A program made the position numbers and the translations under genes. Under the pieces are notes generated by a model. The model saw only the letters and a program-made list of their open reading frames with translations. It did not search any database and was not told the DNA's origin. DNA of 64,000 nt, from positions 47,768 through 111,767 of the forward strand of contig PDTD01000015.1 in the NCBI GenBank assembly GCA_002748755.1, written 5' to 3'. Source of the stretch: Desulfobulbus propionicus (GTDB lineage: Bacteria; Desulfobacterota; Desulfobulbia; Desulfobulbales; Desulfobulbaceae). How positions within the stretch are numbered: the stretch's first letter is position 1; the number at the start of each line of letters is the position of its first letter. Below are positions 44,107-62,537 of the stretch, in pieces.

Positions 44107-45507
44107 TTACACCCGGCTGCAGTTATGTTTTAAGATCGCACCCATCAACGAAACACCTTTTTCTTCCATATCACGAGCGATGTTTTTTACTCTGCCGCCA
44201 AGAAAGGAGGCTGTCATCATGATCGGAATAGCAACAGCCAAGCCGACCTGTGTTGTAACCATGGCTTCAGAGATGCCACCTGCCATAAGCCGTGGATCAC
44301 CGGTGCCATGGACGGTGATAACCTGGAAGGTGTTGATCATCCCGGTTACCGTACCCAGCAAACCGAGAAGCGGTGCCACCGCTGCCAGCACCTTCAGTGT
44401 ACCGATAAACCGCTCTAGCCTTGGAACCTGGGTCAGAATTGCTTCAGACATAGCGCTTTCAATCACTTCCTGATTCTGATTTTTATGCATAAGCCCAGCC
44501 ATAAGCACTTTCCCGGTAGGCCTGCTCTCATGTGGTTTCGTCGTAGCCAATGCCTGCTCAAAATCTCCGTGAAAAACAAGGCTGGTAACCTTGGTCATCA
44601 GCGCATCGGTATTGGAACGCACTCTTGAAAGGAAGATTATTCGCTCAAGTGCGATGATAATTGCAGCAAGTCCCACCAATAGAATCGGGATAACGAGCAC
44701 TCCGCCACTTCTTAGCCGTTCAGCCAGCGTCTCTTTTCTCGACAGCTGGCTGATGGCAACTCCACCGGAGATATCCATCGGAGCATTATTCTGCTCTCCG
44801 TCATAAAATGAAGTAATGGCTCTAGAGACAAAATAGCCGGGATCACCGCTCATGAGCAGACGGTTGGAACCCGGGCTGAAAGTAAGGAAACCATTGTCTT
44901 TATCGGTTTCAAACAGGCCGCCCATATGACCAAACCTGATAATATCCGCATTCCTGTCTTCACCATTGCGATCAAGGACTGATCCCTGGTAGCGTACAAT
45001 AGCCTTACCTGCCTCGATATCATCAAAGTACATGTCTAACAGACCTGTGATATCCGCCAAATCAAAAATCCGCTCACCAGAAAAATATGCATTGAGCTGC
45101 TCCATGCGTTGCTGTTGCCGACTGGAATAAGGCGATTTTTCAGCCAAACCGAGAAAGTTACGGATATGATCAAGGAAAATATTATCTAATTCTTCCTTGC
45201 TGGCTAGACGGGTAGTAATCTCATGCTGGAGTTTATCACGCTTATCAGCAAGAGCTTGGACTTCTTCCTTGTCGATGGAAAGTTTTTTTTGTTCAGTTGC
45301 AACTTCCTTTTTCAGTGCTGCGATCTTTTGCAGCAGTTGCTGACGATTCTTATCTATCTCGGAACGCTGTTTTTTCTGTTCTGATACAGCCTGGCTATAT
45401 CGCCTGTTAACATCACTCGCAGCGCTGTTGATATCCTCAGCTTCTGCGCCGGTAATCCAAAAGAAAAGCAACCCGAAAACAAAGATTTGAAATTGATGTA
45501 TATTCAT
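44107..45507 (-). CDS. Large MotA/TolQ/ExbB protein with N-terminal coiled coil
   Basis: ExbB-type proton channel subunit of the DUF3450-associated class. The 466-residue product has a signal peptide (FVFGLLFFWITGAEAED), a long periplasmic coiled coil (RSEIDKNRQQLLQKIAALKK and following) and a periplasmic domain. Its C-terminal TolQ/ExbB domain has segments GVLVIPILLVGLAAIIIALE and VLAAVAPLLGLLGTVTGMIN, then AMVTTQVGLAVAIPIMMTAS. The start overlaps the DUF3450 gene stop by four bases. It likely transmits proton-motive energy to a dedicated TonB. Confidence 0.9.
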   Translation of the reverse strand: MNIHQFQIFVFGLLFFWITGAEAEDINSAASDVNRRYSQAVSEQKKQRSEIDKNRQQLLQKIAALKKEVATEQKKLSIDKEEVQALADKRDKLQHEITTRLASKEELDNIFLDHIRNFLGLAEKSPYSSRQQQRMEQLNAYFSGERIFDLADITGLLDMYFDDIEAGKAIVRYQGSVLDRNGEDRNADIIRFGHMGGLFETDKDNGFLTFSPGSNRLLMSGDPGYFVSRAITSFYDGEQNNAPMDISGGVAISQLSRKETLAERLRSGGVLVIPILLVGLAAIIIALERIIFLSRVRSNTDALMTKVTSLVFHGDFEQALATTKPHESRPTGKVLMAGLMHKNQNQEVIESAMSEAILTQVPRLERFIGTLKVLAAVAPLLGLLGTVTGMINTFQVITVHGTGDPRLMAGGISEAMVTTQVGLAVAIPIMMTASFLGGRVKNIARDMEEKGVSLMGAILKHNCSRV

Positions 45508-46322
45508 TGTGCTGTCGTCCCCTGCATTTTCTCTGTTTTGGGCTGTGCTACCGGCAAGTTACTTAAACCCACCAACCGAATGCCTTCCGCCATCTCAATG
45601 GCATCACGAATCGCGGTACTATCATTTTCTATTGGCTGCCAAATGAAATCAGACATATCCCACTGCCAAGCCTTCTCACTATCCAGCGTTATAGCATAGA
45701 CACCTACCCGGCCGACCTGAAGAATTTTTACCCTTCGACGCTGACCATCTACCTCAATCTCATCTTCCAGCACATTCACCTGATGACCAAAATCCACCTC
45801 CCTGGCCACAGCATCAAGCACAGCCCTGGTCTTACCCAGCAGGCCGCTGTCGTAATCATTCAACACCATGAAGGCTTGGTGGAGGGCCTTGCGCCGTTCA
45901 GTCAAATGAACCGGAATATCTCCAGCAACCATCCTCTGCAGCTTTGTCAAGATTTCTTCTAGAACCGGCAACAGTTTCATGTTTACCGCCTCCATGGCCT
46001 CTGCCTTTTTCTGCAGGCCTGCAATCTTGCCTTTAAGATCACTTTTGTAGGCAACGAGTTTCTTCCGCTGCCACTGGGTATGCTCCAGACTATTTTCCAA
46101 ATCCTCAATTTGTTCTAACAACCGATGCTCCTCCTCAACCCATGAATCATGGGTCGCCTGGGAGGCCAAGCCAACTTTCACCGCTTTTTCGGAAATGCCT
46201 TGTACATCTGAGGCACTGGTGGCAAATGAGATCTTTGTCATCATCAACATACACAGACTTAAAAAAAACACGTGCCATCTGTATTGTACCAAACTGCCTG
46301 TAAACTCAGATTTCACTTTCAT
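45504..46322 (-). CDS. DUF3450 family periplasmic coiled-coil protein
   Basis: Partner of ExbB-type motors in TonB-dependent uptake loci; its exact role is not established. From the ATG at 46322 (MKVKSEFTGSLVQYRW) the product has 272 residues, with an N-terminal export signal (VFFLSLCMLMMTKISFATSA). A coiled coil covers ~50 to 110 (EEEHRLLEQIEDLENSLEHT). A C-terminal globular part contains KILQVGRVGVYAITLDSEKA and WQWDMSDFIWQPI. Start residues upstream of 46322 are in frame but less likely. First gene of the module. Confidence 0.88.
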   Translation of the reverse strand: MKVKSEFTGSLVQYRWHVFFLSLCMLMMTKISFATSASDVQGISEKAVKVGLASQATHDSWVEEEHRLLEQIEDLENSLEHTQWQRKKLVAYKSDLKGKIAGLQKKAEAMEAVNMKLLPVLEEILTKLQRMVAGDIPVHLTERRKALHQAFMVLNDYDSGLLGKTRAVLDAVAREVDFGHQVNVLEDEIEVDGQRRRVKILQVGRVGVYAITLDSEKAWQWDMSDFIWQPIENDSTAIRDAIEMAEGIRLVGLSNLPVAQPKTEKMQGTTAQ

Positions 46323-46631
46323 ACCTCGTATCATTTGAAAAACCACTTTTTTATTATAATTTTTTTTGAGATAAAAAGAAAAAAAAACGGAGTCTATTTA
46401 CATATTTTTTTTCATTGTTCCAAACTATTAAATTCGTTTATACACATTCTATTCAATATCACTAGCGCCCGCTGATAGGAACCTGAAATCAAACAATATT
46501 TTTTGAATAGTTTCGGCTTTGTGTTTTACCGCAGGAGGGTCGAACAATTCCCATACCCCCTGTGTTAGGATAGTTGTCGTGCTCTTGATGTGGCATTCTA
46601 ATTAAAAATCAGGGGCAAAAAAAGAGGAAAT

Positions 46632-47126
46632 ATGCACTATCCAAAAGAACGAAAAGAGGCAATCTTGAAAAAGATGCTACCACCGAATAACAAGCCTATC
46701 AAGGAGTTGGCTGCAGAAGAAAGGATATCTGAAGCTACTTTATATAACTGGCGGAATGCAGCACGAGCTGAAGGCCGATTGTTGCCTGACGGAGCCAGCA
46801 CACCCCATGGCTGGAGTAGCAGGGACAAGTTTACCGCAGTACTGGAGACATCCGCTCTCAATGAAGCTGACTTATCAGCGTATTGCCGAGAACGCGGCTT
46901 GTACCCTGAGCAAATCCACCAATGGCGGCATTCTTGCGAGCAAGCCAACGATTGGGATCGTAGCCAAAACAAGAAGCTGCAGCAGGCCCGCAGGCGTGAC
47001 CAACGCCCTATAAAGGATCTTGAAAAAGAACTTCGCAAAAAAGAAAAAGCCCTCGCAGAGACAGCAGCGTTGTTGGTGCTGGAAAAAAAGCTCGGAGCGA
47101 TCTGGGGATCAGGAGAGGACGAATGA
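46632..47126 (+). CDS. IS3-family transposase OrfA
   Basis: DNA-binding half of the transposase. The 164-residue product has a helix-turn-helix (IKELAAEERISEATLYNWRN, residues ~23 to 42), a second similar unit (NEADLSAYCRERGLYPEQIH) and a C-terminal coiled coil (KDLEKELRKKEKALAETAAL). Its end overlaps the orfB start by four bases (ATGA), as in many IS3 elements. Confidence 0.9.
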   Translation: MHYPKERKEAILKKMLPPNNKPIKELAAEERISEATLYNWRNAARAEGRLLPDGASTPHGWSSRDKFTAVLETSALNEADLSAYCRERGLYPEQIHQWRHSCEQANDWDRSQNKKLQQARRRDQRPIKDLEKELRKKEKALAETAALLVLEKKLGAIWGSGEDE

Positions 47127-48204
47127 TCAGCACCCCCGATCGCCAGGAGACATTTGCTTTGATCAATGAGGCTGTAGCAGGTGGGGCCAGACTTCACAAG
47201 GCTTGCAAAGGTGCAGGTATAAGTGAAAGAACGTTTCAGCGCTGGACCAGTTGCTGCACCGTCAAAAGTGATGGCAGACCAACGGCAGAGCGTAAGGCAC
47301 CGGCCAACAAACTGAGCCAGGAAGAACGCGCGCAGATAGTTGCAATCTGTAACAGTGAGGAATATTCCAGTCTACCACCCCCCAGATCGTGCCTGATCTG
47401 GTTGACAAGGGCCTGCACATTGCCTCTGAATCAAGCTTTTACCGCGTATTGAGAGAAGTCGGTCAAGTGCAGCATCGAGGCAAAGCCCAGCCACCGCAAA
47501 AACGTTTTAGACCAACACCTTTGAGTGCTGATGGGCCAAATCAGCTTTGGAGCAGGGACATTACTTATCTGGCAACTCCCATAAAGGGTATATTCTATCG
47601 ATTGTACATGATAATGGACATTTACAGCCGAAAAATTGTGGCCTGGGAGGTGCATGCCAACGAAACAGCAGAATTAGCTGCCGAATTGATAGAAAAAGCC
47701 TGCTGGGCAGAACAAACATGCAGGGAGCAGTTGGTCCTTCATGCCGATAATGGCTCTCCGATGAAAGGGGCAACCATGCTGGCAAGGCTACAGAAACTGG
47801 GGATTATGCCTTCTTTCAGCCGTCCCTCTGTCAGTAATGACAACCCGTATTCTGAGAGCTTATTCGGGACAATGAAGTACACACCTGCCTATCCGACCCA
47901 GCCCTTTGGCAGTCTGGATGATGCACGCACCTGGGTGCAGGGTTTTGTTAAGTGGTATAATGAAAAACACCGCCATAGCGCGTTGAAATTTGTCACCCCG
48001 TCGGAGCGACATCAGGGCAAAGACAAGGCAATATGGCAACAAAGAAAACATGTTTATGAAGCAGCTAAACGCCGGAATCCAGAGAGATGGACACAAGCCA
48101 CGAGAAACTGGGACCACATAGACACGGTTTGGCTCAATCCTGAAAAAAACAAGCAGGGAGAAAAACAACAAGAACAGGTGGAAAGGGCTGCGTACTTACA
48201 GTAA
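47123..48204 (+). pseudogene. IS3-family transposase OrfB, one frameshift
   Basis: DDE integrase half. The N-terminal part ends in the zero frame at 47452 after EEYSSLPPP. A change of frame at a run of six C (about 47379-47384) restores QIVPDLVDKG and the rve domain: WSRDITYLATPIKGIFYRLY (first Asp), VLHADNGSPM (second Asp) and PYSESLFGTMKYTP (Glu). It ends at 48204. One base more or two fewer in the C tract would restore a full ~360-residue OrfB. A sequencing error or slippage at the homopolymer is therefore possible. Confidence 0.85.
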
Positions 48205-49436: not shown

Positions 49437-50744
49437 TCATTTTTTTAAATACGATTCCATTGTATGTTGCCTTAAAGTCTCCGCAATTTTCAATGCAACC
49501 TCAAGGCTTTGTTTTGCGTTGAGATAGGGATAACAAAAATTATCATCACTGGATAAAAAAGATTTTTTTTCTATTACCGATTTTTTATTCTTATATTTCA
49601 TTTTTGCGTCATCACTTGTCATTTTCAAATGAATACCGCCAGGAATAGTGCCTTCAGCTGAATGAATATTGAAAAAAGAAATTATTTTTGAAATAATATC
49701 GCTTATATCTTTTATATTTTTTGAATCATTTTTATGTTTATCAGTATCCATTATATCACAACACCACACTACATGAAAATCTTCTCTTTTTATTTCACGA
49801 AGTAATTTAGATAACGATTTTTTAAAACCATTTTTTTCAAGTTGAGTTATAAGAACTAGCCTTCCTTTTTCATTTGTAGGATTTAATAAGGTAATTAAAC
49901 GTTTTATATCATCAATTTTATTTTTCGATCTAATTTTTATTCCAATAGGATTATGAACTTTACGTAAAAATTCAATATAATCTTTATTTACTTGGTAAAC
50001 ACTATCCTCAATCCATAAAATATGTGCTGAGCAGTCATACCATTTTTCTGTAAAATGATCAAAACAAGTAAGAGCTTCTTCGTAGCAAGGCAAAATCTCT
50101 TTATGATATATATAGAGTTGTGTTTGTTTTATTTGAGGAATTTCACCACTAAAACCCAAATTTTTTATAAAACATAATACTTCATCAATTTCTCTAATAA
50201 GACATGCGTAACGTTGATCCATCAAAGAATTGGAAACAAGTTCATGGTTCCACCCTTGAACTCTCTCCAATGAACTCAAGCCTCCGTCAGTAAAAGCTCT
50301 CAGGAGATTCATTTCCGATGCCGATAGATGATAGACATTAAGCAGGCTGCATGGATTAAGCTCACAATCTTTGGACAAAGAGTCGACACTACAAACCATA
50401 TCTTCTTGATTCGAAGGCAACGAATTTCTCTTTTTTGTCGCGTTTTTACCAGATAAAAGCCTGTTAAATTCCTTAGCAATACATCCTGTTTTAATAACAG
50501 GAAGTCCTCCGACATAGCTCAAAATAAGCGCCATTTGGAATAAAATTTTAAATTTTTCGCATATATCAGGGGATTTAACATTGCAACAGTTCTCCGAACA
50601 GTCTTCGCCTTGAAGCAAGAACGCTCTTCCATCAACAGCTTCAGCTAACTGTTTTTTTAAAGAGCAGATCTCTTCAGAAAAAACCAGTGGAGGTAAAACA
50701 GTAAGCTGTTCCAAAACACCACTTACTGCCGACTTATCTCCCAA
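49437..50744 (-). CDS. Class II DAHP synthase homologue lacking active-site residues
   Basis: The 435-residue product aligns along its length with class II 3-deoxy-7-phosphoheptulonate synthases: LPPLVFSEEICSLKKQLAEA, GRAFLLQGEDCSE, NLLRAFTDGGLSSLERVQGW, WYDCSAHILWIEDS, NPIGIKI, AEGTIPGGIHLKMTS, YPYLNAKQSLEVALKIAETL. Against M. tuberculosis AroG (numbering from memory), Cys87 and Lys306 are kept (Cys49, Lys270). Metal ligands His369, Glu411 and Asp441 become Asp333, Lys374 and Tyr405. PEP-site Arg126, Arg284 and Arg337 become Leu97, Ser248 and Gln301. The frame is intact, so this looks like a repurposed or newly inactivated enzyme. It lies ~100 bases after the cysteine synthase gene. Confidence 0.88.
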   Translation of the reverse strand: MGDKSAVSGVLEQLTVLPPLVFSEEICSLKKQLAEAVDGRAFLLQGEDCSENCCNVKSPDICEKFKILFQMALILSYVGGLPVIKTGCIAKEFNRLLSGKNATKKRNSLPSNQEDMVCSVDSLSKDCELNPCSLLNVYHLSASEMNLLRAFTDGGLSSLERVQGWNHELVSNSLMDQRYACLIREIDEVLCFIKNLGFSGEIPQIKQTQLYIYHKEILPCYEEALTCFDHFTEKWYDCSAHILWIEDSVYQVNKDYIEFLRKVHNPIGIKIRSKNKIDDIKRLITLLNPTNEKGRLVLITQLEKNGFKKSLSKLLREIKREDFHVVWCCDIMDTDKHKNDSKNIKDISDIISKIISFFNIHSAEGTIPGGIHLKMTSDDAKMKYKNKKSVIEKKSFLSSDDNFCYPYLNAKQSLEVALKIAETLRQHTMESYLKK

Positions 50745-50846
50745 TTTCGGTTGTTGCGAAATGGTATATTTTTTCCAACTTGATTTTGTCCAGATAATAA
50801 ACCTCCCAGCCGCTGCAATGATACATTTTTTTCTTGTATAATAAGG

Positions 50847-51770
50847 CTATAAAAAGCTTAACAGATCAGTGCTAAAATACCGCTCAATTCTGTCTGGAAG
50901 AATAGTAACGATCCGTTTTTCTTTCCCAAATTTTTTGGCTGCAAGCATAGCACCCATAACATTTGCACCTGAAGAAATACCTACCAAAAGCCCCTTCTCC
51001 ATGGAAAGACGGCGAGCTGTAGTAAGAGCATCCTCATCATCAACCTCAAAAATTTCGTCTATTATCTTTTGGTCTAGAATTTCAGGAATAAAACCATCTC
51101 CAATTCCCTCTATTCGATGCAACCCTGGCTCATGCCCGAGCAAGGCCGAATTATCCTTGGGCTCAACCGCAACAATTTTAATCTCTGGATTTTTTTCTTT
51201 AAGGTACGTTCCTACTCCCATGATTGTTCCACCGCTTCCAATTCCGGATACAAAAACATCAACCTTTCCACTCATATCTTTCCAGATTTCAGGGCCAGTG
51301 GTTCTATAATGAGCATCAATATTATTCTTATTTTTAAATTGATCAGGAATAAAAATATTAGATGAATTATTTCGCATCTCCTCTAACTTCTCTACTGCTC
51401 CTGCAACATTTTTATTTTTTGGAGTTAAAATAAGTTTTGCATTTAATGCACGAATTAGTTTTCTTCTTTCTATACTCATGTTTTCAGGCATGATAATAGC
51501 AACTTCGTATCCTAAAATACAACCAACCATAGCTACTGAAATACCAGTATTACCACTGGTGGCTTCTACTATTAAATCACCTTTTCTTAATTCATTTCTT
51601 TTTTTTGCTTCTTGAATAATATGAAATGCTACTCTATCTTTTATTGATCCACCTGGGTTGAGATATTCAGCTTTAACATAAATAATATGATTATTAGAAA
51701 TATTATCTGATAAATTTAAAGTAAATAGTGGTGTTGAGCCAATATGGGTAAGGGCTCCAAATTTTTCCAT
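50847..51770 (-). CDS. Cysteine synthase (O-acetylserine sulfhydrylase family)
   Basis: PLP enzyme that makes cysteine from O-acetylserine and sulfide. The 307-residue product has the PLP lysine in LNPGGSIKDRVAFH (Lys44), the substrate loop EATSGNTGIS and the phosphate loop GIGSGGTIMGV; the C-terminal GISSGANVMGA serine region is also present. It resembles CysK/CysM equally by eye. In salicylate-thiazoline siderophore clusters, cysteine is the residue cyclised onto salicylate, so a dedicated supply is plausible. The codon pattern is AT-rich, unlike the core genes. Confidence 0.9.
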   Translation of the reverse strand: MEKFGALTHIGSTPLFTLNLSDNISNNHIIYVKAEYLNPGGSIKDRVAFHIIQEAKKRNELRKGDLIVEATSGNTGISVAMVGCILGYEVAIIMPENMSIERRKLIRALNAKLILTPKNKNVAGAVEKLEEMRNNSSNIFIPDQFKNKNNIDAHYRTTGPEIWKDMSGKVDVFVSGIGSGGTIMGVGTYLKEKNPEIKIVAVEPKDNSALLGHEPGLHRIEGIGDGFIPEILDQKIIDEIFEVDDEDALTTARRLSMEKGLLVGISSGANVMGAMLAAKKFGKEKRIVTILPDRIERYFSTDLLSFL

Positions 51771-53987: not shown

Positions 53988-54749
53988 TTATTCAGCGACA
54001 TATTCAGTCAATATTCCAGATAGATATTCCAACACAGCCTGGCGATCAGACTTGATGAAAAAATGATTTCCATGGAAACTCTTGATGGTCAACGGCCCTG
54101 TAGTGTGTTGACGCCACTCCTGTTGCATATTCCTATCTGCCCTGCCGTCATCACTTCCAATGAGTGCTATAATAGGGCAGGAAAAAGGGGCCGCGTCATA
54201 ATAGGAATAGGTCTCATCCATGGAAAAATCAGCGCGCAAAATCGGTAAATACACGTCCATCACTGTGTTGCTTTGGAGTACTGGGGTTGGTGTACCTGTA
54301 TATTGCTTCAGTTCCTCGATTAACTCCTTGTTCGGCAGTTGATGAAGCGGTCGCAATTTTGGAATATGAACGGGACGGGAGCCCGAAACGAATAGACAAA
54401 CGGGTTGTACTCCCCACCTTCTGCGTATTTCGCGCGCAAATTCGAAAGCAATTTTTGCCCCCAAGCTATGCCCAAAAAAGGCGAAGGGGATATCTAGGTA
54501 GGGTGCAAGTTCCTCCGCCATGGACGTAACCAAGTCTGAAAGCCTGTTATATGGTTTTTCGGCAATCCGATTCTCTCTGCCCGGAAGCTGAACAGCGCAG
54601 ACATCCACACTCTGGACTATTTCTTTACGCCAGGAGTAAAATATCGAGGCACCGCCACCTGCGTAGGGAAAACAAAACAAACGCAAACGTTCTCTTGCGC
54701 TTGAGGACCCCCTGATTAACCAAGGACTGTTATGCAAAGTTACATTCAT
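53988..54749 (-). CDS. Type II thioesterase (GrsT/RifR-like), first copy
   Basis: Alpha/beta hydrolase that frees stalled acyl groups from NRPS/PKS carrier proteins. The 253-residue product has the family N-terminus (LRLFCFPYAGGGASIFYSW), VDVCAVQLPGREN, the nucleophile elbow FFGHSLG (Ser95), LRADFSMDETY and the catalytic His in GNHFFIKS. All triad positions look intact. It is cut off from the main operon by ~800 bases of unassigned DNA. Such enzymes nearly always accompany a megasynthase, which is not in this window. Confidence 0.92.
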   Translation of the reverse strand: MNVTLHNSPWLIRGSSSARERLRLFCFPYAGGGASIFYSWRKEIVQSVDVCAVQLPGRENRIAEKPYNRLSDLVTSMAEELAPYLDIPFAFFGHSLGAKIAFEFAREIRRRWGVQPVCLFVSGSRPVHIPKLRPLHQLPNKELIEELKQYTGTPTPVLQSNTVMDVYLPILRADFSMDETYSYYDAAPFSCPIIALIGSDDGRADRNMQQEWRQHTTGPLTIKSFHGNHFFIKSDRQAVLEYLSGILTEYVAE

Positions 54750-55551: not shown

Positions 55552-56883
55552 CTATTGAAACTTTAAATAGCTGGCAACAGTACCCAACTTCTCACACGTC
55601 TCTTCAAGCTCTCGTTCCGGAATCGATTTAGGGACTAAACCTGCACCTGCTCGCAGCCACGACTCTTGAGGTGTCTGGTAAAAACTTCTTAACACAAGAG
55701 CAGCGTCAATACACCCCTCACTATCACAAGTCATCACACAGCCACTATATAAATCGCGAACTTCCTCTTCATGACGGCTGATGCTTTCTATTGATTCCAT
55801 TTTTGGTATTCCCGTTGCAGTAACAGCAGGAAAAAGAGCGTAGAAGGCATCCCATGAATTACATTCTTCTCGTAATTTTCCCCTAAGACGAGAACCAAGA
55901 TGACGTACCCGCCCCCTCGGAATCACACTCATAAAATTATCAAGAAAAATATCTGATCCATTACAAACTTGTTGCATCTCCTCAAATGCCAATTTTACAG
56001 AAACAGCGTGCTCGGCAATCTCTTTGGTATCATTGGTTAATTCATCTTCCAATTTTTTATCTTCTACTGAATCTTGTGCTACTGCTCTAGTTCCCGCTAA
56101 TGGTTGAGTGCTTACCATTCTGTTTTTATCTACCTCGACAACAGTTTCGGGACTAAAACCAGAAGCCTGCAAGTTTCCAATATTAAGAAGAAACGATCTA
56201 GCTGGGCTATTTCCTTTTCGTCCAGCAAAATAACTAGCAACCATATCAATCTTTTTATCAAGAGTAACCTTTCTTGAAAGGATAACTTTTTGATATTGTA
56301 ATGAATTTATTTCATCAACAGCTTTCTTGACAATAGATTTATATTTTTCAGCATTAAAACTTTTAATTTTTGATGAAATATCATATTCTCTCTTAACACG
56401 TTCGTTAAGAGAATTATTTAAGTTATTTTTATTATTATTTTGTATAAAATCTATACTTTTTTGAAGTAATGCACTATCAGATGATTCCAAAATCGCCTCA
56501 TTTTTAGAAAATGATACTCGCAACTTTGGAACAATAATTTTTAAAAGTAAATCATCAGGAACACATGATGCATCCAAATGTATGTATCTAGAAAGTTCAA
56601 AATTTGCAAAACCAAAACCTTTCCAATTTTCCCGAGAAAGCAACTTACTGGCTCGAATCATTGAATCAGAAAAAGCATTATTGACAAATTCTGTTTTTTC
56701 TCCTTTAACATTAACTACTGTTTTATTTCCATAAAAATTTATATATGATTCTATTCCTAAGCCAAATAAATACTTATCATTATTTTCATAGATAATATAT
56801 TCTTTATCAAAATTTTCTTCGGCAAGAATACAAACCATATACAAATTATCAATATTTTTATCAAAAACAATTTTACTCTGCAT
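55552..56883 (-). CDS. Salicylate synthase (Irp9/MbtI/YbtS type)
   Basis: Converts chorismate through isochorismate to salicylate and pyruvate. The 443-residue product has the chorismate-binding domain with base Lys199 (YQKVILSRKV) and acid Glu246 (GFSPETVV), spaced as in MbtI Lys205 and Glu252. Also present are TQPLAGTRA, TKEIAEHAVSV and ERELEETCEKL magnesium ligands, RHLGSRL, FPAVTATGIPK and LRAGAGLVP. Similarity to MbtI/Irp9 is clearer than to EntC, and no separate isochorismate lyase gene is present. It follows the aryl-AMP ligase by 14 bases. Confidence 0.88.
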   Translation of the reverse strand: MQSKIVFDKNIDNLYMVCILAEENFDKEYIIYENNDKYLFGLGIESYINFYGNKTVVNVKGEKTEFVNNAFSDSMIRASKLLSRENWKGFGFANFELSRYIHLDASCVPDDLLLKIIVPKLRVSFSKNEAILESSDSALLQKSIDFIQNNNKNNLNNSLNERVKREYDISSKIKSFNAEKYKSIVKKAVDEINSLQYQKVILSRKVTLDKKIDMVASYFAGRKGNSPARSFLLNIGNLQASGFSPETVVEVDKNRMVSTQPLAGTRAVAQDSVEDKKLEDELTNDTKEIAEHAVSVKLAFEEMQQVCNGSDIFLDNFMSVIPRGRVRHLGSRLRGKLREECNSWDAFYALFPAVTATGIPKMESIESISRHEEEVRDLYSGCVMTCDSEGCIDAALVLRSFYQTPQESWLRAGAGLVPKSIPERELEETCEKLGTVASYLKFQ

Positions 56884-56897
56884 AACATACTCTCCTT

Positions 56898-58493
56898 TTA
56901 TTTGTCAGAAAACATGTTTACAAGAGACTTTTTGTCAATTTTTCCAACGCTCGTTAAAGGAAAAGTATCGACCCGCTCTAGTTGATCAGGGAATTTATAC
57001 TGAGCGACCCCCAAATTTCGTAGAAAATCATGTAGTTCCCGCAATTCCACTTCTTTGCTGGAAATTATGACAGCACAGCTTCTTTCGCCCAGCTCCTCAT
57101 CAGGAAGAGCGATAAGAACCGATGTTTCTATTTCAGGATATCCATTCAAGTAGGATTCAATTTCTGCCGCTGCAATCTTTTCCCCTGCACGATTTATTTG
57201 CTCTTTTATCCGCCCAATAACAATGAGATTTCCATCTTTGGTAAAATATGCCAAATCGCCAGTTCGATAAAAATTGTCCTTAGTAAAATCTTTTTTGTTT
57301 TGCTCTGGAGCTTTGTAATATCCACGGATACTATAGGGACCTTTCAAAATCATCTCCCCCACCTCTCCATCATTCACATCATTGAGGTTTTCATCTACAA
57401 TTCTGACGTTATCGTGAGGGCTAAGGGGTTTCCCTTGTGTTGTCAAAACAATCTCTTCAGGATCATCAAGTGAGGTGTAGGAGAGAAACCCTTCGGCTGT
57501 ACCAAAGACTTGCTGAAGGGTACAATTCATTTCCGGCCTGATTCTCTTGGCTAAATTCGCATCTAGTGGTGAACCTCCCACAAGCAGGACTTCCAGGCTT
57601 GAAATATCGGTATCGTCCCATTCCAAAGCCTGCAACCAAAGATTAACAAGGGAAGGAACTAATGCTGTAATCGTAACCTTCTCCCTGGCAATAAGGGGGA
57701 AGGTCTCATCAGGACTTGCTGTAGAGCTCAAGACGACTGTTCCTCCCGTAAAAAGCGTTCCCAAGATACCAGGGCTCGCCAAAGGGAAATTATGACCAAC
57801 AGGTAAAGCAGCGAGAAAAACAGATCCTGCATCCATCCCGCATCTTATAGCCGAAGCTTTGGCTTTATAGGCGTAATCAGCATGCGTTCGAGGGATCAAC
57901 TTCGGGATTCCAGTTGTCCCTCCTGACAGGAGAAGGAGGGCCATATTTTCATGCGCAGGGGGAGAGAGTTCTAAATTCTCTTCTATCGATAAATTGTTAC
58001 TTTGATAGAAATCCTTATCGGGATCGTCAATAATCAAATGAGTTATACAAGGATTGTTTTTTTGTATTCTTTCCGCCATTGCACTATACTCAAAACCAAG
58101 ATATGATTTGCTAAAAATATATGCCTTTGGTTGAGCTATTGCAAAAATGCCATTCAATTCCTTCTCCCGATGAGCAGGCATTGTTAAAACAGGAACTACT
58201 CCAATTTTAAATAAAGCAAAACAGGTAACGACAAAGCAAATAGAATTTGTTAATTGGATTGCTACATTATCTCCATTTTGCAATCCTAACCCAAGAAAAG
58301 AATGAGCTAACTTGTTTGCCTCGTCATTAAGTTGAGCATAACTAAGTCTACGATTTTTTTCAATTAATGCTACTTTATTTCCATATCTCAAAACAGCACG
58401 TTCTAGTTCTTCTCCAAGAGACAATTTCTCCCAATATCCCAATTTCTCGTACAATTCAACATCACTGTCAGAAAAGCATTTGTATAAACTCAT
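56898..58493 (-). CDS. Aryl-AMP ligase, salicylate or 2,3-dihydroxybenzoate type
   Basis: Stand-alone adenylation enzyme that activates an aryl acid and loads a carrier protein. The 531-residue product shows LLLSGGTTGIPKLIPRTHAD (P-loop), PVGHNFPLASPG, QVFGTAEGFLSYT, YRTGD and INRAGEKIAAAEIE, with the C-terminal Lys in VGKIDKKSL. Specificity positions as I recall them from DhbE (235, 240, 333, 337) read Asn, Ser, Ala, Leu: Ser is DHB-like and Leu is salicylate-like. The neighbouring salicylate synthase favours salicylate. It overlaps the NusG-like gene by four bases. Confidence 0.92.
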   Translation of the reverse strand: MSLYKCFSDSDVELYEKLGYWEKLSLGEELERAVLRYGNKVALIEKNRRLSYAQLNDEANKLAHSFLGLGLQNGDNVAIQLTNSICFVVTCFALFKIGVVPVLTMPAHREKELNGIFAIAQPKAYIFSKSYLGFEYSAMAERIQKNNPCITHLIIDDPDKDFYQSNNLSIEENLELSPPAHENMALLLLSGGTTGIPKLIPRTHADYAYKAKASAIRCGMDAGSVFLAALPVGHNFPLASPGILGTLFTGGTVVLSSTASPDETFPLIAREKVTITALVPSLVNLWLQALEWDDTDISSLEVLLVGGSPLDANLAKRIRPEMNCTLQQVFGTAEGFLSYTSLDDPEEIVLTTQGKPLSPHDNVRIVDENLNDVNDGEVGEMILKGPYSIRGYYKAPEQNKKDFTKDNFYRTGDLAYFTKDGNLIVIGRIKEQINRAGEKIAAAEIESYLNGYPEIETSVLIALPDEELGERSCAVIISSKEVELRELHDFLRNLGVAQYKFPDQLERVDTFPLTSVGKIDKKSLVNMFSDK

Positions 58494-59023
58494 TTTTTTC
58501 TCTCTAAAATTTGAAATCCAAGTGTCATCGGAACCAATCGGTTAAGTAGTCGAACCATTACTTTGGCTTTTCTTTTCCTTTTATCAATAAAAACTATCTC
58601 GCCTTCAATATCCTTTAGTGGACCAGATATTATAGCAACATTCTCTCCTTCTTCCCAATGAACTTCTGAAAGCTCTATTACCCCGTTATCATCTGCCATA
58701 AAAAAAATATTCAACATTTCACTCGCCTTCACCGTAGCCGGTGAATCATGAAACATTACAGGTCGAATTTTTTCTGAAATTAGTGGTGTTTTTCCTATTG
58801 CAAGGAGCTTTTCAATTTCTTTCTGGACAAAAACATATCCTGGGAAAAGGACTTTTGTTACAACTTGAAACTCTCCTTTATAAGTATGATACATTTTTTT
58901 TTGAGGAAGATATGTTGGTATAGAAAATTCTCCTACTCGATCAATTGAGTCTTTCATTTTTTTTTCTTTTCCAACTAGAGTCTGCAACACAAACCAGTTC
59001 TCTGGGCTACGATGCTGATGCAT
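58490..59023 (-). CDS. Specialised NusG paralogue (LoaP/RfaH-like)
   Basis: Operon-specific transcription elongation factor. I start at the ATG at 59023 (MHQHRSPENWFVLQTLVGKE, 177 residues) with AAAGGA eight bases upstream; an upstream in-frame start at 59077 overlaps the thioesterase gene. NGN domain: NWFVLQTLVGKEKK and VLFPGYVFVQKE. KOW domain: VAIISGPLKDIEGEIVFIDK. The basic KRKRKAKVMVRLLNR segment and closing GFQILERKK resemble LoaP, which lets polymerase read through long biosynthetic operons. Housekeeping nusG is at 17.3 kb. Confidence 0.87.
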   Translation of the reverse strand: MHQHRSPENWFVLQTLVGKEKKMKDSIDRVGEFSIPTYLPQKKMYHTYKGEFQVVTKVLFPGYVFVQKEIEKLLAIGKTPLISEKIRPVMFHDSPATVKASEMLNIFFMADDNGVIELSEVHWEEGENVAIISGPLKDIEGEIVFIDKRKRKAKVMVRLLNRLVPMTLGFQILERKK

Positions 59024-59057
59024 TTCATTTCCTTTTATTTTATACTGAGAATTTTGT

Positions 59058-59813
59058 TCAAAAACAATATCTCTCAAGATCGTATGAAATCGCTGAAAGT
59101 AATGATTCTGTAGATGAGTTTATAAAAAAATGGTTACCTTCAATTTTGTGTATTAAAAACTCCTTTGATGTGTATTTATTCCAAGGTATCATAACATCCT
59201 TAGGCCCTTCCTTATCATTACTTCCATAGAATGCAGAAATAGGAATATCAAGAGGATCTTCTTTTTTATGATTATATGTCTCTTCAATAGCTAAATCGGC
59301 CCTTATAATTGGAATATATAACCTCATAATTTCTTTATTTTCAAGAATAGCATTAGGAGTTCCAGAAAATCTTTTCAATCCTTCAACAAGTTCTTCTTCA
59401 GGAAGATGATGTAGTGGTGAAGGCTCTGGAATATGAGGAGCCCTTGCTGCCGCCACAAGCAGATGTAGGGGAGAAGGAAGGCTTTTCCTACGTAGTTCCC
59501 GAGCGAGTTCAAAGGCAACCAAGGCACCAGTACTATAGCCAAAAAAAGCAAATGGCATATCTAAGTAATCCTGTAAAGAGGATAAAAGCTCATCTACCAA
59601 CACATGAACATCTGCTATCGGCGCCTCGGAGATACGGCTTTCCCTACCGGGAGGCTGTACCGCATAAATTTCTATCTTTTCAGGTAAAATGTCATTCCAT
59701 ATCCTGAAAATTGATGCCCCTCCCCCTGCGTAGGGAAAGCAGAACAACCGTACTTGAGGAGTTTTTCTTCTATAGGGAACTATACTCTTTGAATCAGATA
59801 AATTATGCACCAC
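59058..59813 (-). CDS. Type II thioesterase, second copy
   Basis: The 251-residue product has VRLFCFPYAGGGASIFRIW, IEIYAVQPPGRES, nucleophile elbow FFGYSTG (Ser94), LRADLAIEETYNH-type segment (IIRADLAIEETYN) and the catalytic His in EGNHFFINS. It opens the four-gene operon thioesterase, NusG-like, aryl-AMP ligase, salicylate synthase. It is clearly related to the copy at 54.0 kb but not a recent duplicate, with many differences throughout. Confidence 0.92.
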   Translation of the reverse strand: MVHNLSDSKSIVPYRRKTPQVRLFCFPYAGGGASIFRIWNDILPEKIEIYAVQPPGRESRISEAPIADVHVLVDELLSSLQDYLDMPFAFFGYSTGALVAFELARELRRKSLPSPLHLLVAAARAPHIPEPSPLHHLPEEELVEGLKRFSGTPNAILENKEIMRLYIPIIRADLAIEETYNHKKEDPLDIPISAFYGSNDKEGPKDVMIPWNKYTSKEFLIHKIEGNHFFINSSTESLLSAISYDLERYCF

Positions 59814-60319: not shown

Positions 60320-61081
60320 GATTCGCATAGCCTTACCAGCACCGCAGATTATTCCTAAATCCATAGCCAGCACAGGACTGCTGGCAGCCTGACGGCCAAG
60401 TTCATCGATCACCTTCCTTATTATCGCCAAGAACAGCAGTTCAAACGGTTGGGCATCGAGCTTGCCCGTACCCTGATGTGCCGCTGGGCCATGCAAGTTG
60501 CCTCTGCCTGTCAACCGCTGTTCAACCAGCTGCAGGATGAATTGCAGGACAGTGATTACATCAATATCGATGAAATTACGGTGCAGGTTGTAAAGGAGCC
60601 GGGTCCTGACCCCACTACCAAATCCTATATGTGGCTGTTCCGTCGAGGTGATCCGCACAGACAAGTACTTTTGTATCAGTATCATCCGACCAGAAGCGGC
60701 GATGTGGTGCGCGATGATCTCGGCGATTTCAAGGGATACGTACAGACTGACGGGTATGCTGGGGACGATTTCCTTGATCACCGCAAAGACATTCAGCATA
60801 TCGGGTGTCTTGTCCATGCCCGGCGTACGTTTGCTGATATCGTCAAGGCCCAGGGCAAGAAAGCCAAACCTGGGAGTGCGCATAAAGGGGTTGCCTTCTT
60901 CAGTAAACTTTACAAGAAAAAAAAGATGTGCCGTGATGAACATCTTCCCCCTGAAGAAATTTATCAACGGAACCAGAAACACTCCAAACCGATATTGGAC
61001 GACTTGAAAAGCTGGCTTGAGAAAAAAATAGAGCAGGTACCAACAAAAACGGCAGTGGACCCAATTGATTGGACAGCCTGA
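60320..61081 (+). pseudogene. IS66-family transposase (TnpC) central fragment
   Basis: Plus strand reads LPAPQIIPKSIASTGLLAA, frameshift, then TAKFIDHLPYYRQEQQFKRL, YINIDEITVQVVKEPGPDPT (first Asp), SYMWLFRRGDPHRQVLLYQY, GYVQTDGYAGDDFLDH, HIGCLVHARRTFADIV, ending KTAVDPIDWTA. The N-terminal zinc finger and the C-terminus are absent. It differs from the IS66 remnant at 39.9 kb, which keeps the other end, so the two may be of different subgroups. Confidence 0.85.
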
Positions 61082-61118
61082 TGGGTGAGATAAGCTACAA
61101 GCCCTGAGATTAAAATAT

Positions 61119-62537
61119 GGTTCCTCAGCAGAATCTGTGGATAAATTGGGAGAGTAAGCTCTAAAATTATCAGAAATCACCTCCCCATTATGGGGTGAAA
61201 AAACAAAGCATCTCGTTGTATATTTTGGAATTATGAATAGCAACCAAACCGTCCAAATCCAAAACAAAACAACGAGATACAGATAAAATCTATACTGAAT
61301 AACATGCAAACGCACAATGGTTCGTTTACGGAACCGTGAGACTGGTGGAACAAGGCGAAAAGTAGAGCCTTGAAATTGAAATAAGATCGCGTAAAGGAAG
61401 CAAACCTACTTGTTCTATTTGCGGAAAAAAATGTGCCGATTACGATACTCAGCCCGTTCGCAGATTTGAATTCGTTCCCTTTTGGGGTATCGCTGCTTTT
61501 TCCTGTATGCTATGCGCCGGGTAGATTGTCCTAGCTGCGGGATAAAGGTTGAACGCGTGCCCTGGGCAAAGGGAAAAAGACATTTGACAAACACATACCA
61601 GTGGTTTCTTGCTGGTTGGGCAAAACGTCTTTCGTGGCTGGAGGTTGCCCGTTGTTTTCGAACCTCCTGGGAAAATGTTTTCCGCTCGGTTCAGATGGCT
61701 GTTGAATGGGGGCTTGAGCACAGAGAACTGGAAAATATTGAAACAATCGGTACCGACCAAATCTGCTGGCGAAAACGAAGCGATACTTTTATCACTTTGG
61801 TTTACCAACTTGATGCAGGCAAAAGACGCTTGCTTTGGATAGGAAAAAACCGAACGGCAAAAACCTACCGTGGATTCTTTGAATGGTTGGGAACCGAGCG
61901 TTGCAAACGATTGCGATGTATTTGCACCGACATGTGGAAACCGTATTTGCAAATCATTGCTGAAATGGCCCCTGATGCCGTCAATGTTCTTGATCGGTTT
62001 CATATAATGAGCCACATGAATAAAGCGATAGATAAGGTAAGGGCCAGAGAAACAAAAGAACTGAGAGAGACAGGGAAAGCACCTGTTCTTAAAAAGAGCC
62101 GCTGGTGTTTTCTTAAGCGTCCAGAGAACCTGACTAAAAAACAGGTCGACAAACTGGCCGATTTGCTCAAGTGCAACACAAGAAAGATTAGGGCTTATCT
62201 CCCCAAGGAGGATTTCCAGCACTTCTGGGAGCATAAATCCCCTGCATGGGCAGGAAAATTTCTTGATCAGTGGTGCACGAGAACCATGCGTTCCCGAATT
62301 GATCCGATGAAGAAAGTAGCAAAGATGCTGCGCAGTCATAAGCCTCTTCTACTCAATTGGTTTCTGGCAAAAAATACCATTGCTCTTGGGTGTGTTGAAG
62401 GATTTAATAACAAGGCAAAAGTGGTCACAAAAAGATCGTATGGTTTTCGGTCTTATTACCAGTTAAAAACTGCTCTATATCATACACTTGGAGACTTGCC
62501 TGAATTACAATCCACCCACAGATTCTGCTGAGGAGCC
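61119..62537 (+). mobile_element. ISL3-family insertion sequence with terminal inverted repeats
   Basis: Left end GGTTCCTCAGCAGAATCTGT and right end (reverse complement) GGCTCCTCAGCAGAATCTGT match at 19 of 20 positions. The span is 1419 bases and contains one transposase reading frame. No 8-base target duplication is evident at the flanks. Confidence 0.88.
61303..62531 (+). pseudogene. ISL3-family transposase with N-terminal defects
   Basis: The N-terminal part reads FVYGTVRLVEQGEK then a TAG stop, and continues with the zinc finger (SKPTCSICGKKCADYDTQPV, RRFEFVPFWGIAAF). A frameshift follows, after which one long frame from 61482 carries AMRRVDCPSCGIKVERVPWA, IGTDQICWRKRSDTFITLVY, CICTDMWKPYLQIIAEMAPD (Asp), VLDRFHIMSHMNKAIDKVRA and ALGCVEGFNNKAKVVTKRSY (Glu). 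The C-terminus lies within the right inverted repeat. Two lesions suggest it is inactive. Confidence 0.85.

Follow-up and report, generated by a model that had tools for sequence, protein, structure and literature searches.

The gene on the minus strand at 49437..50795 of the window, by which we mean the whole 64,000-nucleotide stretch of Desulfobulbus propionicus DNA analysed here, was identified by PF01474, structure matches and alignments as a class II DAHP synthase homologue that lacks the metal and PEP ligands. The explanation that we prefer, and to which we give about an even chance, is a non-catalytic class II DAHP synthase paralogue, likely a helper protein, encoded in an AT-rich salicylate cluster that was acquired; selection would have acted on its frame and its contacts. 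Aromatic biosynthesis begins with DAHP synthase, which is also a main point of its feedback control, and if this explanation is true, a dead paralogue that keeps its interfaces and is tied to a salicylate cluster would represent a new way to steer shikimate flux.

Gene, reading frame and start

The homologue matched PF01474 over the whole profile (375 bits, profile positions 1-438 of 438) and the solved class II DAHP synthases 5uxm (E = 8.8e-91) and M. tuberculosis AroG (2ypo, E = 3.8e-60), and these matches bear out the full-length class II fold that an earlier reading, made from the sequence only, had assigned to it. The score for the class II equivalog TIGR01358 was 375.7 bits against a cut-off of 614.7, which was thus not reached. 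The same sequence-only reading had described an open frame of 435 codons starting at 50744. The minus-strand frame 49437-50744 is indeed open, whereas this DNA contains 22-54 stops in each of its five other frames; the start is less secure, as homologous sequence continues upstream of this TTG to 50795, giving 452 codons without a stop. Residues are numbered here in the 452-residue frame, where residue 1 is the codon at 50795 (subtraction of 17 gives the earlier numbers).

Upstream of the TTG at 50744, residues W2, K4, S6, W7, Q14, Q15 and P16 are conserved and L13S is not, and this conserved part reaches close to the end of cysK. A GGGAGG motif (50802..50807, minus strand), which from its sequence is ribosome-binding-like and would presumably act in this way, precedes in-frame ATT (50798) and ATC (50795) codons and lies 6 bases before the ATC (window positions 50793-50807). 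No in-frame ATG, GTG or TTG follows GGGAGG before the TTG at 50744, which itself lies inside the conserved region. The relatives start at an upstream ATG, and at this position the gene has the ATC that stands behind GGGAGG. The start may therefore be either non-canonical or recently lost.

Active-site residues

The roles of the active-site residues follow those described for M. tuberculosis AroG in passages of two papers (PMC7144000, PMC5493349), and AroG positions are given in brackets. Among the metal ligands H350D (His369), E391K (Glu411) and D422Y (Asp441) were lost and C66 (Cys87) was the only one kept; among the PEP residues R105C (Arg126), R265S (Arg284) and R318Q (Arg337) were lost and K287 (Lys306) was the only one kept. 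The replacement of three of the four metal ligands, numbered Asp333, Lys374 and Tyr405 in the sequence-only reading, was thus reproduced by alignment as H369D, E411K and D441Y, as was the persistence of one Cys and one Lys, Cys87 and Lys306. Its three lost PEP arginines were right in number and for Ser248 and Gln301; its Leu97 corresponds to Arg135 of the E4P phosphate site, and the remaining PEP arginine, Arg126, is the position it numbered Cys88. Other changed sites were K112R (Lys133), R114L (Arg135, E4P phosphate site) and K360N (Lys380). The multiple alignment places L114 at Arg135 and a gap in the pairwise HMMER alignment would place K117 there, the arginine being lost either way. S115 (Ser136) was kept, Cys440 also remains, and Asp264 at the Glu283 position stays acidic, as in nearly all of 140 aligned relatives (D in 71, E in 68, A in 1).

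At the metal, PEP-arginine, Lys133 and Arg135 positions these 140 relatives are canonical, the exceptions being two gaps at Asp441. The 140 aligned rows are not 140 independent genomes, as the two source sets share some organisms and identical rows were seen, and class II matches outnumber them (in the class, 237 of 257 genomes have one). The duplicates L034-L039 were left out of the first alignment and L067, owing to a coordinate error, out of the second protein alignment; L071-L086 lie outside the 140-row set, some of them being in alignment A2, and the stretch L093 did not enter the analysis. The alignment query itself found at least 590 stretches and at least 579 relatives, and active sites were taken from the best 80.

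Cysteines number 17 in the protein, several of them replacing conserved arginines; the 140 relatives have 5-11, with a mean of 6.7. Neutral simulations, described below, gave maxima of 16-20 cysteines, so that the count is within or close to them, and a cysteine-rich new metal site was considered suggestive only. The wider alternative, a new enzyme in which the DAHP synthase barrel is re-used for a reaction needing neither this metal site nor PEP, appears improbable. It would accommodate the remaining Lys306, Cys87, Cys440 and acidic residue at 283, the polar replacements (Asp, Lys, Tyr, Gln and Ser) and a cysteine count above the maximum among the relatives, but that count is what the simulations also approach, one sequence cannot define a new conserved set, and the neighbouring genes suggest no substrate.

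Pattern of loss and neutral simulation

The relatives are at least 95% identical at 155 positions, and the protein kept 93 of these. The losses were uneven along the chain, with 5 of 19 such positions kept at 101-150 and 12 of 13 at 151-200 (chi-square p = 0.0012), and unevenness of this size was reached by 2 of 2000 permutations matched for residue type. The subunit interface was taken from published data on M. tuberculosis AroG, as given in the passages of PMC5493349 that we used and mapped from AroG position 52 onwards, which makes a weaker test than a structure model would. The near-invariant positions were kept in 19 of 21 cases at the interface, 3 of 12 in the active site and 71 of 122 elsewhere (interface versus active site p = 2.5e-4, interface versus rest p = 0.006, active site versus rest p = 0.035, values uncorrected for several tests), and the residue-matched permutations gave 0.0011 for the interface and 0.024 for the active site. 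Other results tell against this pattern. When all mapped sites were taken, conserved or not, the tetramer interface was kept no better than the rest (10/23 versus 160/339, p = 0.83) and the dimer interface weakly better (21/32, p = 0.063). In the strict set of invariant positions the excess of losses in the active site was modest (p = 0.023; 0.054 among R, K, H, E, D, C and S sites), and hydrophobic sites were kept in 26 of 38 cases against 21-24 expected, although a wider set gave 50 of 70 against 34-38.

Neutral evolution was simulated from a consensus ancestor with the codon usage of the cluster; no indels were allowed, and base composition and transition bias were varied. Simulation to the observed 226 changed sites of 439 produced a mean of 21-32 nonsense mutations and a minimum of 9 (200 runs in each of 6 settings). 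Strictly invariant positions served as sites hardly able to change while the enzyme worked, and simulation calibrated on their losses (56 of 128) produced a mean of 14-25 and a minimum of 3 (300 runs in each of 9 settings). The absence of any stop, against 14-32 expected on average, indicates that selection held the frame open for most of the divergence. Invariant sites were also kept more often (122 of 198) than the means of 93-97 simulated without a fold constraint. These comparisons support selection on the frame and fold after catalysis was lost, a conclusion that applies to the past divergence and is not proof for today; the gene may be dying now.

The proposal of the sequence-only reading that this is a pseudoenzyme rather than a product of random decay thus found support in the open frame, the uneven losses and the near-invariant interface residues that were kept; the roles it suggested, as a regulator of chorismate flow or a binding protein for salicylate supply, are hypothetical. 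Its opposite, a decaying pseudogene which has met no stop yet and on which selection ended when the genome shrank and the siderophore cluster fell apart, is possible, if somewhat unlikely. The strictly invariant arginines were lost in 12 of 14 cases against 5.5-6.8 simulated, a loss to which C-to-T mutation at Arg codons could contribute, and these losses together with the 17 cysteines, many of them Arg-to-Cys changes, are what C-to-T decay would give. The conserved N-terminus without a conventional start codon before it and the GC content at first codon positions (GC1), at 0.40 below that of the neighbouring genes, fit the same account. The nonsense mutations that decay should have brought on average are, however, absent, and the losses are not spread evenly but spare the interface.

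The salicylate cluster and its origin

The homologue lies in a cluster of genes on the minus strand. Directly upstream is cysteine synthase A (CysK, 50847..51770; TIGR01139 382.6 bits, cut-off 350.95; 2egu, E = 8.9e-86), and further upstream are a type II thioesterase (53988..54749; PF00975) and a salicylate synthase (55552..56883; TIGR03494 412.7 bits, cut-off 325.15; MbtI structures at E of about 1e-72). The next gene encodes an aryl-AMP ligase of the salicylate or DHB type (56898..58493), which scored 603.9 bits with TIGR02275, below the DHB cut-off of 723.55, and whose probable substrate is suggested by its neighbour. It is followed by a NusG/LoaP-like antiterminator (58490..59077; PF02357; NF033641 LoaP 113.5 bits, just under the cut-off of 125) and by a second type II thioesterase (59058..59813; PF00975). 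The LoaP-like gene may be a sign that the operon was formerly longer. On both sides of the cluster, at 46632-48204 and 60449-62531, lie transposase genes (HTH_Tnp_1 with rve, IS66 and ISL3).

The GC content at third codon positions (GC3) was 0.22-0.27 in the DAHP synthase homologue, cysK, the salicylate synthase, the LoaP-like gene and one thioesterase, compared to 0.48-0.53 in rpoB and rpoC; it was 0.34 in the AMP ligase and 0.47 in the other thioesterase (53988..54749), unlike most of the cluster. The simplest reading is that the AT-rich salicylate cluster was laterally acquired. Class II genes are general in the group, occurring in 52 of 57 near genomes and in the 237 of 257 genomes of the class mentioned above, own genome included in both counts, and the salicylate synthase cut-off was passed in 4 of the 257, again with the own genome. 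The nearest relative of the dead homologue, from family f12, had 48% identity and the five matching genomes of the genus 41-43%; by this comparison orthology to the gene proper to the genus was judged unlikely. The end branch of the homologue is about 10 changes per site long and saturated, and its placement in the tree is therefore unsure.

Decay would also be in line with the absence of an NRPS condensation domain from the genome assembly and with the IS elements on either side of the cluster, but the adjoining cysK and salicylate synthase score above their family cut-offs. The genome had three carrier-domain matches, of which the first is a 79-residue frame, the second falls within a long AMP-ligase/acyltransferase-like protein and the third lies next to a ketosynthase-like frame. 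A one-contig genome of the class (G012) carries a salicylate synthase (L202:9850-11205) with about 54% identity to that of the window; none of the other cluster genes occurs near it in 20 kb, and transposase-like frames lie on one side.

Search for relatives with the same losses

None of the 140 aligned relatives shares the substitutions. The sequence-only reading had held that such an absence, together with relaxed selection, would indicate a decaying gene, and the first half of this is what we observed; the restriction of the losses to this one sequence among those aligned counts in favour of decay. Scans for close homologues, resting on short peptides of this protein, gave 36 pattern matches in genome contigs and 6 in viral contigs, none of them related. 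Of 199 fetched loci, none carried a cysK or LoaP match alongside a class II DAHP synthase; a single locus, L141, whose DAHP synthase is canonical, had a weak match to the chorismate-binding family (123 bits).

The space of relatives searched included Desulfobulbaceae, Desulfocapsaceae and the cable bacterium Candidatus Electrothrix. Class II matches were present in 103 plasmid records, with a best identity of 37.7% among the matches listed, in 2 phage records at about 31-32% identity, and in 22 of 395 genomes of the phylum sample, own genome included.

Genome assembly and missing partners

The host is a relative of sulfate reducers and cable bacteria, and its assembly comprises 2.0 Mb in 44 contigs. 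No catalytic housekeeping DAHP synthase was found in this 90.66% complete assembly; the only match to the class I family was KDO8P synthase, and chorismate synthase is present. One chorismate-binding-family match was found, where most genomes of the class listed have two or more, and as this match is the salicylate synthase, no TrpE/PabB-like gene was found. The genes that neighbour the housekeeping locus in the genus were missing likewise: the linked 188-residue gene and rpoN were not found in the assembly, these two empty searches having had no positive control, and lptB was not found, the best match having 31% identity. We do not claim that the homologue is the sole DAHP synthase of the cell, since the assembly also lacks the genes that accompany the housekeeping locus; the missing genes may reflect a reduced genome or an incomplete assembly, both being possible.

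We consider it very improbable that the protein is still a DAHP synthase with a rearranged or partial active site. The remaining Cys87 and Lys306, and an assembly that has no other DAHP synthase yet retains chorismate synthase, speak for it, but three metal ligands (His, Glu and Asp) were lost together with three PEP arginines, and the lack of a housekeeping gene may be an assembly gap, with rpoN and lptB of the same neighbourhood not found either.

Proposed role and comparison with known systems

For the preferred non-catalytic paralogue, we propose that a DAHP synthase in an acquired AT-rich cluster once raised the chorismate supply for the salicylate synthase, that catalysis was then lost, and that the protein may have been retained as a folded, oligomerising one. 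Its likeliest role would be that of a helper subunit whose partner could be a further copy of itself, a catalytic class II DAHP synthase or a chorismate user such as the salicylate synthase, and which might modulate or scaffold this partner in the manner of a prozyme. This function is perhaps now fading as the genome shrinks. The points against this reading are the single copy with such losses, the uncertain start, the weak retention of the interfaces over all mapped sites and an assembly in which no catalytic DAHP synthase partner was found. The more specific idea of a bacterial DAHP synthase prozyme, a dead class II subunit that would use the kept interface to join either the catalytic DAHP synthase of the host or the salicylate synthase and would steer shikimate flux to salicylate by altering normal feedback control, is doubtful and is put forward tentatively.

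The active class II DAHP synthases (PF01474, TIGR01358; AroG and 5uxm) share with the window protein full-length homology, the N-terminal region, the inserted region and many near-invariant structural and interface residues, whereas the window protein lacks three metal ligands, three PEP arginines, Arg135 and Lys380. A class II DAHP synthase gene accompanies a salicylate synthase and an AMP ligase in the caboxamycin cluster as well, according to the sections consulted of PMC5481532, where CbxF is described as a DAHP synthase favouring chorismate supply; the window protein does not have the residues for that. In M. tuberculosis, chorismate mutase is activated by DAHP synthase without active-site residues being lent (passages of PMC4281200), and this complex (also PMC5493349, in part) resembles the proposed helper in that the boost comes from surface contact and not from an active site. 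The DAHP synthase of that complex is active, whereas the window protein is known from its sequence and its contact with a partner is conjectural. In trypanosomatids, AdoMet decarboxylase and deoxyhypusine synthase are activated by prozymes, their dead paralogues (excerpts of PMC5201418, PMC6221367 and PMC3663545); the window protein is like these in being a dead paralogue with an assembly surface that has presumably been retained, and differs in fold and organism.

A search of the open-access literature, which mostly excludes subscription papers, returned no paper joining "DAHP synthase" with "pseudoenzyme", and none of the open-access matches listed linked either term, pseudoenzyme or prozyme, to DAH7PS or 3-deoxy-7-phosphoheptulonate synthase. 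Elsewhere in the window, at 44107-46346, adjoining genes share the DUF3450 domain, which in one of them is fused to a MotA/TolQ/ExbB domain.
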